Source: Xanthostigma xanthostigma (Eukaryota; Arthropoda; Insecta; Raphidioptera; Raphidiidae). From it: 64,000 bases of DNA. Location: assembly GCA_963575645.1 (NCBI GenBank), contig OY754476.1, positions 3,410,001 to 3,474,000 of the forward strand. Reading direction: 5' to 3'. The notes below the pieces were generated by a model. It was not told the origin of the DNA, ran no database searches, and saw nothing but the letters and a program-made list of their open reading frames with translations. Positions 20,098-64,000 of the stretch are shown piece after piece. The first letter of the stretch is position 1. Every line of letters starts with the position of its first letter. Both the position numbers and the translations under genes were made by a program.

Positions 20098-20400
20098 AGG
20101 ACTTTTTTTCAAAATCTTTGAGTCTGATAAGAACTCTTCAATATATAAAGTTATCAACCAATTTTTCAGACAAATACCTATAGATTAACAAAAAATATAA
20201 AAATTAATACATCAATGTTTCGGTCCGGATTTGGACCTTCTTCAGAACTGATCTAAAAAATATAAAATTAACTAATTATTAACTAATTTTTATATTTTTA
20301 AACCAGTTCTAAAGAAGGTCTAAATCCGGAATAAAACGTTAATATATTAATTTTTATATTTTTTGTTAATATATTTGTTTGAAAAATTGGTCAATAATTT
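20098..20400. mobile_element. Penelope-like element remnant: inverted pair of hammerhead-bearing repeats
   Basis: 20189-20372 is an imperfect inverted repeat whose arms each hold a hammerhead-type core. On the minus strand (20205-20252): CTGAAGA, then GGTCC-loop-GGACC as stem II, then GAAAC. On the plus strand (about 20305-20332) the matching core is degenerate (CTAAAGA). The flank CTCTTCAA...CCAATTTTTCAGAC matches 45.1 kb. Penelope-like retroelements are known to carry hammerhead motifs in terminal repeats that may be inverted. No coding remains. Confidence 0.55.
20205..20252 (-). ncRNA. Hammerhead-like motif
   Basis: The CUGAAGA box, a 5-bp stem II (GGUCC/GGACC) and GAAAC are present. GAAAC is followed by AUUGAUG, so the usual GUC cleavage triplet and a convincing stem I are missing. 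It is probably inactive now. Confidence 0.5.
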
Positions 20401-20459
20401 TATTTATTGGGGATTTTTTTTTGTAAGTTAAGATTTTATAATATGGAGTAAAATAAAAT

Positions 20460-43171: not shown

Positions 43172-43323
43172 GATAGAGTATTTGGAAAGAATATAATTAC
43201 AGAAAACTCTGAAGATGATACAAAACGTATCGAAACGTTAGTATTAAATGCAAGTTTAAAAAAATTTCAGTATTGCTTCATTTTCGATCCTTATGCCACG
43301 GAATTCTTTCCAAATACTCTATC
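43172..43323 (+). repeat. 21-bp inverted repeat enclosing a hammerhead motif
   Basis: GATAGAGTATTTGGAAAGAA at 43172 pairs perfectly with its complement ending at 43323, enclosing 110 bp with the hammerhead motif at 43203-43245. A direct repeat CACTGTAGAAACCGT occurs at about 43107 and 43324. Confidence 0.8.
43203..43245 (+). ncRNA. Hammerhead ribozyme-like motif with complete core
   Basis: CUGAAGA (43209-43215), one extra base, stem II GAUAC/GUAUC with loop AAAAC, GAAAC (43232-43236), then GUU as cleavage triplet. Stem I can form between AAAACU before the core and AGUAUU after the triplet with one mismatch. Stem III is reduced to the self-complementary ACGU, so cleavage would need a dimer, as proposed for Penelope-type hammerheads. 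Confidence 0.6.
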
Positions 43324-43329
43324 ACTGTA

Positions 43330-45090
43330 GAAACCGTTCACAATTACGCAAACATGAAAAAAGAACGCGTTTATACAACACTTCCGGATGGACATAAAAC
43401 GGTCGGTTGAAATGTACATAAGAGAAATGAATCTGAGCAGGGAAGTGAAGACATCAAGTAGGTAAATGTACGTGCGGTAACCAAGTCGGTAGCATTGGAT
43501 GACATCACGTTCATATTATTCCTACAATACAGTGTCGGTAGTAAGAGTGGGTGTCCGCTACCGACCGCTACCTTCTTCGACGCTTGCGGGATACCTATGT
43601 ATGTAAATACGACCCACAATGCATTGCCGGCACTTGATCTTGTTCAAATGCCTATAAACTATTGTTTTGTAAATCAGACAGTGAGTCGTGACTTTCTTTG
43701 TAAAACTCTTCTTCCCTTTTGTACATGGAAGATATGGAGGGTAGACGTAAGAAGGACTATCTTATATAAGAGATAAGTTGTAAAAGTGTCCATCTAAATG
43801 CTGTATTCAAAAAACGTCCGGAATGGCGCTAGCGCTGCATCCGAGTATAAAATCAAATTAGCAGTTGTTTACCCTCCATGACAGTTTTTTTTATAAAGTT
43901 TTTATTGGCTTTTGTTTTTAGTAACATTTAGCCACGACAAATATTTATTTATTATTTAACCATTCCTTTCTTATACTTAATTAATTAAACAGGGACACTA
44001 TAAACTCCATGACAGTTATAAACGAATTGAAGTGCGCTGAGTTGGAAAACTTAGTAATTTTAATTATTAGAGTCGTTAATAACACGTGCAATATATAAAA
44101 TATAAACTGTTTAGGTAGTCCAAAATAATTTAATAAATATAACCAAAAAACCTGCTGCAAGATAGTATCGAGAGTGATTTAATTTTTGTTAGCTTTTACT
44201 AATATTTTATAGTTTATTCAAATCAGTATAATCGTTAATTTACTACTTAATGGATAATAGCACGTTTAAAAATGATACTTATATCAAAAATTAATTTTGT
44301 CATATTAATTTTTAATTTTTTGTTTTACTTTCAAAAAGTGCGCCATAAAAAAGTGGAAATTTTTTCCTCGTTTACTTTTCTATCCTCTAATAATTAATTT
44401 TTGCCCTCCATACACTTGCTTTAAAGTTTACCCTTTTGCGACAGTGGCGGTCCTCTAAGGCTTTTTGATGGACACTTTTTCGTACACAGAGATTATTCTC
44501 CTTAATCTCTACCCTCCATACATTAAACGAAAAAAAACTCGATTTAAATAAAATTTATGTGAGACCAATCTGAAACTATGCCCTGTGAAATGGAAAAAAA
44601 TGATTCATACACGTACACAGAGATGGTTCTCCTTAACCTCTACCCTCCATAATAGAAGACGATCGAATGAAATATGAACACTATACATTCAAACTTATTA
44701 GTATCATTTGCAGGCTTTTATTTAGCTACACATGTTTGTCAGTCAGTCAGTCAATCAGTTTAGGTAAAATTTTGCAAGTCGATTTTGTACCGCTTCCAGT
44801 TGCATTGTGATCTAACAAATATTAAAAGTTTATAAGCTCTTTTCACAATACCAATACACTTTCATTAGTGAATAACAGTTTCCATACAACTAAGTCCACT
44901 CGAACCCAAAACTCCCAAGTTCGAGTTCTTGCAACTAACTAAGTGTCATCGAAGGCGACTCAGTGTTTTGTGAATTATTCCTGTGTTGGAAAGCATATTA
45001 TTATTCAGTCAAGAAATAACTTATTCAGAATAAATCCATGCAAAATACTTGATCAAATTGAGCACTAGCACTAATAAGTTATCAAATAAA
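43330..45090. other. No recognised gene; iterated CCCTCCAT words
   Basis: The word TACCCTCCAT or a close variant occurs near 43869, 44003, 44404, 44508 and 44641. Two of these lie in a 40-bp direct repeat listed separately. A 93-residue frame at 43495-43776 and its antisense partner are unsupported. Confidence 0.35.
44481..44650 (+). repeat. Pair of 40-bp direct repeats
   Basis: CGTACACAGAGAT, TTCTCCTTAA and CTCTACCCTCCATA occur in the same order at 44481-44520 and 44612-44651. Confidence 0.6.
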
Positions 45091-45094
45091 GTTT

Positions 45095-45520
45095 AGAACA
45101 ATTCAAATCTTTGAATAACGTCTGAATAGAACTCTTCAAATAAATAAAATTGTCGACCAATTTTTTTCAGACCATAATATATTGACAAAAATTATATAAA
45201 AAAATATAAATCAAAATAACAAAGGATGACGTTTCGATCCGGATTTGGATCTTCTTCAGAAAAATCTAGAAAATATAAAAATTATTAGTATTAGTTATTT
45301 AAATTTATGTAATAGAATGCACGATGATTGAATATTTTTGAGAAAATCAAAAGAATTAATAAAAAATCAATAACAAACAAATTTTTTAATACGTAGTCAT
45401 GGATATCAAAGTGCCATAAAGAAAAAGTTATTTAAAAAAAGTAATTTTTTTTTATTAAATAACTAATACTAATAATTTTTATATTTTTCTGAAGAAGATC
45501 CAAATTCGGATGGAAAAAAG
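45095..45520. mobile_element. Penelope-like element remnant with inverted hammerhead repeats
   Basis: TTAAATAACTAATACTAATA with hammerhead sequence at 45453-45516 is the inverted copy of 45237-45303. Left flank TCAAATCTTTGAATAACGTC, TGAATAGAACTCTTCAAA and TCGACCAATTTTT match 20.1 kb and 47.4 kb. Two terminal-type repeats in opposite orientation with hammerhead cores is the Penelope-like pattern. No reverse transcriptase or GIY-YIG code was found. Confidence 0.55.
45222..45268 (-). ncRNA. Hammerhead-like motif
   Basis: Minus strand: CUGAAGA, an extra A, stem II GAUCC/GGAUC, GAAAC, then GUC. Core and cleavage triplet are present and stem III is only ACGU. Stem I does not pair convincingly, so activity is doubtful. 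Confidence 0.55.
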
Positions 45521-61650: not shown

Positions 61651-62115
61651 CACTTTATTAGAAAGTCTTTTTTTTAAAACACATTAATGGCGTCAACAAT
61701 AAAATGTATTATAACATTATTTATTAAAAAATTCATTTAAATCATAAAAGTTGTTTTGCAATAAAAATTTATTTATTAATTCCTTTTTAAAAAGGGATTT
61801 TTTGTTGATATCAATATTTTTAACATTCTGTAGCAGATTATTATGTATTCGAATCAGATGTCCAATGTCTATACATGTATACAATAAATTTCTGAAATAC
61901 AATTTAAAATTCAAAATTTTTTCTTCATTATTACGAAAGTATGAATTCATTCGTTTAAAATTTTGATAGATTATTAGGAAGGCCATGTTGTGTAAAAATC
62001 GCATAGATTCTTTTTTTTTAGTTGTAGAATTATTATAGTTACACAATGTATTAAAGTTTAATTTGCGCAGTAAAAAGAGAGGTGGGACGTTTGGGGGGAG
62101 TTCTTTAAAAATCAA
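61612..62115 (-). pseudogene. LINE ORF2 C-terminus with (ATT)n tail
   Basis: The minus-strand frame ends LLQNVKNIDINKKSLF, KKELINKFLLQNNFYDLNEF, FNK. The pattern LP..I+.....FK+.L...L....FY...EF is the standard C-terminus of Jockey-type ORF2. Downstream come AATAAAG and a pure ATT tail (about 61619-61648), as at 48.3 kb. The first 17 residues of the 132-residue frame come from dispersed repeat B, so the LINE part starts near 62060. Confidence 0.65.
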
Positions 62116-62462
62116 TTACAGGATCGTGTCGATGCGATAAGTTTTTTTTTGCGCAGTGAAAAGGGGAGAACGTTTGGGAGGAGTTCCTTCAAAAACAATA
62201 CGGGGTCGTGTATATAAAGTGAGATAGTAATACAGTAATTATACACCAGTTGCTATGACGTGTATATGTGATTAAAAAAATGACAGTGAAAGACGAAAAG
62301 TTTTTTCGTTTGAGGAAATTTTTGAATACTCCGCAAAGTTTTTTTTTTTTGGAACGTCAAAATTTAGTTTTCTTTGACTTGAAAACAAAAAAAAACAAAA
62401 CAAAAAAAAAAAAACAAAACAAAAACAAAATTTGAGCACATCCAGTTGTCGTACTGGACCCA
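62065..62462 (+). repeat. Dispersed repeat family B, copy 2
   Basis: Matches 9621-10010: two GCGCAGTGAAAAGGGGAGA-like blocks, GAGATAGTAATACAGTAATT, ACACCAGTTGCTATGACGTG, ATGACAGTGAAAGACGAAAA. A CAAAA-type simple repeat (62388-62430) has expanded near the right edge. Confidence 0.6.
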
Positions 62463-62739
62463 AAATTTGATTTTAAGATTATTAAATTTCTATGTACAGG
62501 CATCTACATAACAAGTTTGGGTGCTGGTATCAACTACCACGCAGGACATATTTTATTGTATTTTTAATTTTTAATAGAGGCTTAAACTATTTTTAGCATA
62601 CATTTTAGTTTTATGGTTTAAGCTGAGAAAAAAAAACATATTTTTAGCAGTGATACAGAACCTTAATAACGACGCAAGATAGTAATGTGGAACATGTAGG
62701 TATGTGTAATATATTATGCACATGTCTACAACTGCGGTA

Positions 62740-62799
62740 GACATTATCAAAGGCGATGTGGTAGCGGGTGAAGTGTTCTTCCAGGCTGCTCACGGGTAA
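62740..62799 (+). repeat. 60-bp exon-like segment, copy 2
   Basis: Open frame IIKGDVVAGEVFFQAAHG ending at GGGTAAG, with copy 1 at 1262-1321. It ends exactly where the palindromic Harbinger-like element (62801) begins. Identity of the peptide unknown. Confidence 0.4.
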
Positions 62800-62800
62800 G

Positions 62801-62956
62801 GGCTAGCGCACATGAAGAGCGTTCAACGTGCGTTAGCCTAACGCGCGTTTACAATTTCTATACAATTGTATATAACTGTTTATATGATAACGCGCGTTGG
62901 TGGCGCGTTGAACGCGCGTCATCATATAAACAGTTATATACAATTGTATAGAAATT
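62801..62956 (+). mobile_element. Palindromic Harbinger-like element fragment
   Basis: GGCTAGCGCACATGAAGAGC after TAA matches 7757 onward. 62853-62956 forms a hairpin with 46-bp arms, one mismatch and the same 12-nt GGTGGCGCGTTG loop as at 8.0 kb, in the opposite orientation. It stops at the end of the palindrome without a second terminus. Confidence 0.5.
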
Positions 62957-62980
62957 AAAAATAAATAAACAAAAAACATA

Positions 62981-63250
62981 TTTTTAATAACAAGTTTTTG
63001 TTAGTTGTTAATGAAAAAGAACTAAAAAGTTAAAAATATTTTTTCCGATTAGAAATAAGTCATTTTATACCTACTTATCACAGTCTCAAGTTTACATTTT
63101 AATAGCAAGACAGAAAAAGGAGGGTGTAACACTTTTATTTGAAAACTTGAGACTGTGATAAGGACGTATAAAATGGCTTATTTCTGATCGGAATAAAATA
63201 ATTTTTTAGTTCTTTTTTATTAACAACTAATAAAAGCTTGTTATTAAAAA
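62981..63250. repeat. Imperfect inverted repeat, about 115-bp arms
   Basis: TTTTTAATAACAAG, then CGATTAGAAATAAGTCATTT and CACAGTCTCAAGTTT, pair with AAACTTGAGACTGTG, AAATGGCTTATTTCTGATCG and CTTGTTATTAAAAA. It lies directly beside the palindrome at 62853-62956. Confidence 0.7.
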
Positions 63251-63915
63251 TTATTTTTTTCGATTATTTATTAAAATGTATTCAATATTAAGATCGTTAT
63301 GTACATATTTGAGAAAATAACGTCCAACTGGGATATTTTTGAATGTCTATACAGTACAGCAGTCTTAACTAATACACGCATTTTCAGTTTTGGCGGTTTC
63401 TCTTTTATTTAATTTATAATTTACATGCGTGGAAGGCAACCGTAGCCCAATCGACCGGTACCGTCGCAGCAGAAGTTTGTTATTAATAATATATTAATCA
63501 TATAAATACAAATCATGGTTGGTGAAATTTCGCGGATTTATAACTATATCAAAGTTCAAACGAAATGTATTTATAGTTTGCAAAATGTTGAAGCAAACAT
63601 TTAGAATTTCAACCCACTGTATCTCAGGAACTGTGCGTTTGCCGACAAATATTTAATGAAACTTTCTTTATATGACCTAAGGATTCGCCCTCTAAAGTTT
63701 TCGGCCAGACTTAGTAAACACCTTAAATAATATTTTTTCTTGATACTTCGATCGAAAGTACATACTTTCGGCATCAGTTTTAAGGCAGAAAGTCTAACAT
63801 TTACGCATTGGTGTGATTACACGCACTGATGCGGGAAATACGTACGTTCGAGCGACAGTAAAAAAAAGTAACCTATCAACTGTTGCTTAGCTAATAGTCG
63901 CGAACAGCTGTCATT
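63251..63915. other. No recognised gene
   Basis: Could be the body of the element whose hammerhead lies at 63922. No coding frame or repeat partner within the window. Confidence 0.3.
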
Positions 63916-63921
63916 CGTGTA

Positions 63922-63960
63922 CTCCTGAAGATGGACTTATTGTCCGAAACGAGCGTCGAG
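63922..63960 (+). ncRNA. Hammerhead ribozyme candidate, complete
   Basis: Stem I CUC (63922-63924) with GAG (63958-63960); core CUGAAGA (63925-63931); one extra U; stem II GGAC/GUCC with loop UUAUU; GAAA (63946-63949); stem III ACG/CGU with a 2-nt AG loop; cleavage triplet GUC (63955-63957). All conserved core positions are present in the right order. The extra base before stem II is shared by the other copies here. It is probably a Penelope-like terminal repeat running off the window. Confidence 0.7.
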
Positions 63961-64000
63961 AAAGAAAATATTTGTAGAATTTTCAAGTGTTTTATTATTT

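Follow-up and report, generated by a model that had tools for sequence, protein, structure and literature searches.

A minimal hammerhead motif in a 5′-truncated repeat copy of Penelope-like type from Xanthostigma xanthostigma

The window, a 64,000-nucleotide stretch of the Xanthostigma xanthostigma genome (contig OY754476.1, positions 3,410,001 to 3,474,000), ends in a copy of a dispersed repeat that interrupts an older one and carries a compact hammerhead motif. The motif occupies 63922–63960 and reads CTC-CTGAAGA-T-GGAC-TTATT-GTCC-GAAACGAGCGT-C-GAG, with GAAA at 63946–63949 and the pairing letters A-C-G and C-G-T within 63949–63956. The features of the locus are the following.

63735–63920, + strand: older host repeat, the target of the Penelope-like copy's insertion (own-genome repeat match)
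63918–64000, + strand: 5′-truncated pseudo-LTR copy of Penelope-like type, spanning −13 to +70 in the family numbering (own-genome DNA search and arm boundaries)
63918–63920, + strand: TGT common to the host repeat and the Penelope-like copy, a possible microhomology junction (the host-repeat match ends at 63920, the Penelope-like match begins at 63918)
63922–63924, + strand: 5′ strand of stem I, CUC (sequence and descriptor)
63925–63931, + strand: hammerhead core CUGAAGA (sequence, descriptor and genome-wide core count)
63932, + strand: one additional unpaired U after A9, ahead of stem II (other cores have U, A or C)
63933–63945, + strand: stem II, GGAC at 63933–63936 and GUCC (GTCC in the DNA) at 63942–63945, with the loop UUAUU (sequence; covariation in 13 cores)
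63946–63948, + strand: core GAA, G12-A13-A14 (invariant in 13 aligned cores)
63949–63956, + strand: stem III stretch ACGAGCGU, whose commonest form in the family is the palindrome ACGAUCGU
63957, + strand: C17, with predicted cleavage after it (position in the motif)
63958–63960, + strand: 3′ strand of stem I, GAG (sequence and descriptor)

Every hammerhead piece listed in the initial annotation is present at 63922–63960 in the correct order, and the conserved type I core CUGANGA ... GAAA ... NUH is intact. The cleavage point predicted after 63957 is in the right position, the base being C17 by motif order. The description of the hammerhead as complete holds for its letters and fails for its fold as a monomer, since closure of a 3-bp stem III by two nucleotides is below the minimum loop of the folding program. 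The extra base before stem II had been taken for an oddity and is nothing peculiar, being present in 29 of 29 distinct cores. Self-cleavage of the window copy appears doubtful from its letters because stem III lacks a normal hairpin closure and the 8-nt palindrome is broken: G replaces T at 63953, giving ACGAGCGU instead of ACGAUCGU.

The motif is more than a chance assembly of letters, as a 36-base majority core is found with up to three mismatches 274 times (144 on one strand, 130 on the other) in the 623 Mb, 28-contig host genome, against 0 for the reversed pattern. Within the window a descriptor comprising the core, a 4-bp stem II, a 3-bp stem III, NUH and a 3-bp stem I matches a single site when both strands are scanned, and the same descriptor yields two sites in total over 200 dinucleotide shuffles. 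Four occurrences of core plus stem II are present in the window versus 13 in 200 shuffles, and with the palindrome added there are two versus one. The window holds a hammerhead-like core, CTGAAGATGATACAAAACGTATCGAAACGTTAG, at 43209 (+ strand) with the palindromic ACGU. A second Penelope-like element (PLE) pseudo-LTR copy at 45081–45516, 85% identical to the L060 family, has its core at 45259 on the − strand, also with palindromic ACGU, and is accompanied by an inverted fragment. At 20112–20409 lies a pair of PLE pseudo-LTRs, placed head to head and belonging to the L058 family (82% and 80% identity), in which one arm retains a core at 20245 (− strand) in which ACAU replaces ACGU.

Stem II covaries in an alignment of 13 cores, of which five belong to the window family and eight to other families. 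None of these cores departs from CUGA, G8-A9 or GAAA, and stem II forms standard pairs in all 51 scorable cells. Three of its four pairs vary on both sides, with 17 such cells versus 4.6 in shuffles, counts that are inflated by related rows, and sliding the stem II partner destroys the pairing. Stem I has 3 bp in the window family. Between GAA and the cleavage base, 23 of 29 distinct cores have a perfect palindrome, although palindromy was no criterion in collecting them; the six exceptions are all variants of the window family, the window copy included. Five palindrome types occur, namely ACGU, ACUAGU, AGCGCU, AUGUACAU and ACGAUCGU, of which AGCGCU is a single case. It is the fifth type, from the hammerhead-like core of L080 (GAAAGCGCTTAA), a locus included on other grounds.

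Palindromic stem III stretches in the relatives fit a dimeric hammerhead. When two molecules of the majority core are folded together they are predicted to form a double hammerhead with a 3-bp stem I, a 4-bp stem II and an 8-bp shared stem III, at −23.2 versus −14.4 kcal/mol for two monomers, in a program that models no hammerhead tertiary contacts. In the same folding, the cores of the window copy, L056 and L044 prefer other pairings to the dimer. The three-helix architecture would consist of a stem II that covaries and a stem III that could form between molecules in intact copies and is broken in the window copy. If the hammerhead acts at all in intact copies, it would do so as a dimer.

These observations bear on the reading that the resemblance to a hammerhead is due to chance or is purely structural, with no ribozyme function either now or ancestrally. 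The letters could be kept for another reason, since an AUG at 63931 inside the core is open for 41 codons in the window subfamily, and the window copy is without a workable monomer stem III. Thirteen cores from several families nevertheless keep CUGANGA and GAAA with compensatory changes in stem II, stem III stretches are palindromic outside a few window-family variants, and the AUG frame is not conserved, so that this reading is very improbable indeed. A coding role for the core AUG as a general feature is rejected on the last of these grounds: codon 3 of the frame is TGA in the CTGATTG subfamily, and TAA or TAG follows soon after the AUG in the L056 and L044 cores. The tail of the repeat holds a second AUG (MFYQVPSEKSVQI), a candidate for the true start.

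Covariance models are a poor guide to this class of motif. The Rfam search of the window lists no match at the gathering threshold, and a permissive search of 62000–64000 gives Hammerhead_1 at 16.0 bits (E = 3.1, gathering 34), so the covariance-model check proposed at the outset falls short of its cut-off. The motif is accordingly filed as a minimal PLE variant and not as a canonical RF00163 member. The miss says little about the motif because the same-build cores of L056, L058, L060 and L062, which lie beside PLE genes, also lack any hit to a hammerhead model with E up to 5; a fifth control source, L013, is a poor one as its C3 is mutated. Rfam was therefore set aside as an uninformative test of minimal PLE hammerheads, a class that its thresholds miss. 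The window also has two long inverted repeats, MITE-like hairpins at 62851–62958 and about 63040–63240, with sub-threshold microRNA-precursor matches in Rfam.

The repeat carrying the hammerhead is present in hundreds of copies in the genome. In a numbering that sets the AUG at 63931 to +1, the longest arms start at −69, at the palindrome GGTTAACC (L010, L011, L013, L014), and arm ends cluster near +77 or near +124, the 47 bp between the two ends being an optional tail. Many copies are head-to-head inverted pairs, and 17 of the 18 loci with two arms combine an arm that extends to +117 to +131 with one that extends to +63 to +84. Thirteen of the 19 loci in the first batch (L010–L028) are two-armed and all 13 obey this rule, as do L047–L050 in the second batch, where L051 is the one ambiguous pair. 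At L051 (941–1725) both arms end at +73 and a piece covering +50 to +125 lies ~530 bp further, a pattern that could mean either that an insertion interrupted the arm or that the one-tail rule has an exception here. The pair count omits L014, whose second arm is only a 28-nt fragment and which has another single copy ~1.2 kb away, and the single-armed L009, L013, L017, L019, L023, L028, L052 and L053. The arm-end rule is not a product of selection because the query by which the loci were chosen ended at 64000, ahead of both ends.

Flank words of 9–16 bp, the target duplications of the family, are shared at 11 of 21 loci; mismatched flank pairs share words of at least 9 bp in 11 of 420 cases, none longer than 10. 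The arms of one locus also share non-consensus letters, 10 over 11 loci versus a mean of 1.1 when arms are re-paired, and none of 1000 re-pairings reaches 10. This comparison covers 11 of the 13 pairs of L010–L028, L015 and L022 overlapping too little, and none of L047–L050. It is these shared letters that point to a common source element for both arms, and not the divergence, whose mean within pairs (3.2%) is only slightly lower than that between loci (3.9%). Gene conversion between arms is a possible alternative cause.

Three of the marks by which PLEs are recognized are found in the family: pseudo-LTRs, direct or inverted, with an optional tail of 30–50 bp; variable target site duplications of roughly 8–16 bp, seen at family level; and a hammerhead motif in the pseudo-LTR. 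By its arms, tail, head-to-head inversion and target duplications the motif belongs to a PLE-type repeat family. Many inverted pairs with short target duplications could also suggest a foldback or MITE-type DNA transposon. The arms, however, differ in length by a fixed rule, one tailed and one tailless, and face inward from variable 5′ breakpoints with no fixed shared ends. The length of the target duplication varies, and full-length PLEs of the same genome are built alike, which leaves a DNA transposon with a negligible probability.

The window copy itself is a fragment of such an arm. It starts at −13, so that it lacks almost everything that precedes the core in the pseudo-LTR, and extends past the window by 54 bases to 64054 (position 1055 of L009), that is, through the tail. 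The copy is single-armed with no inverted partner and shows no target duplication (shared flank word of 4). The suggestion that a Penelope-like repeat continues beyond the window is borne out by this end at 64054, by the PLE-type anatomy and by the same-build cores beside PLE genes described below. In the other copies fetched, the older repeat continues past 63920 (TTTTACGTATAACC... or a close variant), a continuation that is absent from the window. Template jumping onto the natural end of another repeat is ruled out, since the upstream repeat continues beyond 63920 in the 10 copies examined (L002 and nine others). With its palindrome broken and its 5′ part missing, the window copy is probably an inert remnant whose activity, judging from its letters, would be weak or absent.

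PLE genes are abundant in the same genome. Searches for GIY-YIG give at least 37 matches at E up to 0.001 among the 150 of 521 candidates scored. L044 has a 657-aa open frame that contains RVT_1 (46.1 bits, cut-off 29.6) and GIY-YIG (25.8 bits, cut-off 22.6) by Pfam, and its protein, with 67 of 1563 candidates scored, matches at least 68 genomic sites. Pfam domains were checked in L044 alone, the other elements being PLEs by similarity to it. In the flanks of 11 distinct PLEs (20 short loci), all with open-framed genes, core plus stem II is found at 13 of 20 loci and in 10 of the 11 elements; the PLE at C10:12673056 has no hammerhead core in the flanks fetched. The element at C1:75242405, with an 844-aa open frame, has the same build as the window family: over 637 bp its inverted 5′ arm and its 3′ pseudo-LTR agree at 99.7% of positions, the tail is on the 3′ copy alone, and a 14-bp target duplication, TAATAGTTCTAAAT, flanks the whole element.

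An open reading frame joining reverse transcriptase (RT) to GIY-YIG, as seen in the sister families (L044 and C1:75242405), was not found on the window family's own pseudo-LTR by a search with the 41 N-terminal codons, in the best 150 of 647 candidates, where the longest frame has 155 aa. Nor did an RT partner for the family appear through the upstream pseudo-LTR sequence (40 of 57 candidates scored) or through the flanks of the 11 PLE genes. Such short copies, for which this search yielded no RT of their own, recall metazoan retrozymes, non-autonomous elements that spread as small circular RNAs cut by two hammerheads and use the PLE machinery in trans; available parts of one review (PMC7761336) propose that PLE enzymes mobilise retrozymes. 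Published metazoan retrozymes, as far as the available part of PMC7229834 describes them, are head-to-tail tandems of units of about 170–400 nt with canonical helices and loop-loop contacts. No head-to-tail tandem units were seen in 27 loci here; the additional fragments or copies 500–2600 bp away at L012, L014 and L051 are not unit-length tandems. Copies here stand alone or form head-to-head pairs, show target duplications and the two PLE-type ends, and have a hammerhead of the minimal PLE kind. A retrozyme origin is for these reasons highly unlikely.

The motif is, with high confidence, the hammerhead of a Penelope-like retroelement, lying in a short 5′-truncated pseudo-LTR copy inserted into an older repeat. 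Insertion may be pictured from what is described for the Anolis PLE in the available part of PMC11167929. The element RNA would be bound by a PLE protein carrying RT and GIY-YIG, both strands of an AT-rich target DNA would be cut, and reverse transcription would begin at two internal RNA positions, one about +77 and the other about +124. The 47-nt stretch between the two starts would then be the tail. A head-to-head copy would result from two RT starts, one on each cut strand, with the cDNA arms joined by microhomology. In intact members the palindrome ACGAUCGU may pair between molecules or in tandem as stem III, and a dimer would then cut after C17, in line with the dimer action proposed for PLE hammerheads in the available parts of reviews (PMC6155905, PMC7761336, PMC6466107).

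A further idea, speculative and on balance unlikely, is that the palindromic stem III is kept mainly for RNA pairing and not for cutting. Two element RNAs would be held together, each reverse-transcribed from one cut strand and one start site, giving head-to-head insertions with exactly one tail. The origin of both arms from the same source element and the use of one start site per arm are compatible with this proposal. If true, it would explain palindromes that are self-complementary yet family-specific (ACGU, ACUAGU, AUGUACAU and ACGAUCGU). It would also explain why core mutants left insertion unreduced in a published PLE assay: in the available part of PMC11167929, mutating the hammerhead core of the Anolis carolinensis Poseidon element PAc leaves insertion in vitro unchanged, the protein helps the RNA cut, and the mutants (C3 and G8) left stem III untouched. 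A hammerhead read from raw sequence is here confirmed and placed in a repeat family, and the genome becomes a test bed for the purpose of PLE hammerheads, as it offers families with different self-complementary stem III stretches and numerous head-to-head insertions in which each arm ends at a start site of its own.

Hammerheads in PLE pseudo-LTRs are of a kind already known from the literature; our literature search returned no paper joining Penelope-like, hammerhead and Lepidoptera. The minimal type I PLE hammerheads (Cervera and de la Pena 2014; Lunse et al. 2017), as presented in the available parts of PMC6155905, PMC7761336 and PMC6466107, lie in the pseudo-LTR, have a weak or absent monomer stem III and a palindromic stem III region. 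The window family resembles them in its short pseudo-LTR hammerhead, its weak or missing monomer stem III and its palindromic stem III region, the palindrome being 8 nt long in this family, 6 and 4 nt in sister families and lost in the window copy. For PAc, the available part of PMC11167929 reports that C3 and G8 precede the AUG and that the gene starts at stem II, that the cut lies 26 bp downstream, that two start sites of reverse transcription within the RNA bound the tail, and that both DNA strands are cut and extended. The window family likewise has C3 and G8 ahead of an AUG at the start of stem II and would share the two RT start sites separated by the tail. In PAc this AUG starts the RT gene, whereas here its frame is open in one subfamily and meets a stop at codon 3 in the other, and none of the window-family copies examined is followed by an RT gene. 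Pen2a of the rotifer Adineta vaga is a full element with an ORF and a 31-bp tail, as against the 47-bp tail of the window family; the available text of PMC3846280 contains 0 mentions of a hammerhead. That text describes head-to-head arms of which one bears the tail, a target duplication of 9 bp and, in some families, a palindrome at the pseudo-LTR 5′ end. The window family agrees with Pen2a in its inverted pseudo-LTRs, its one-arm tail and its target duplications, and with some of the families described there in its 5′ palindrome.
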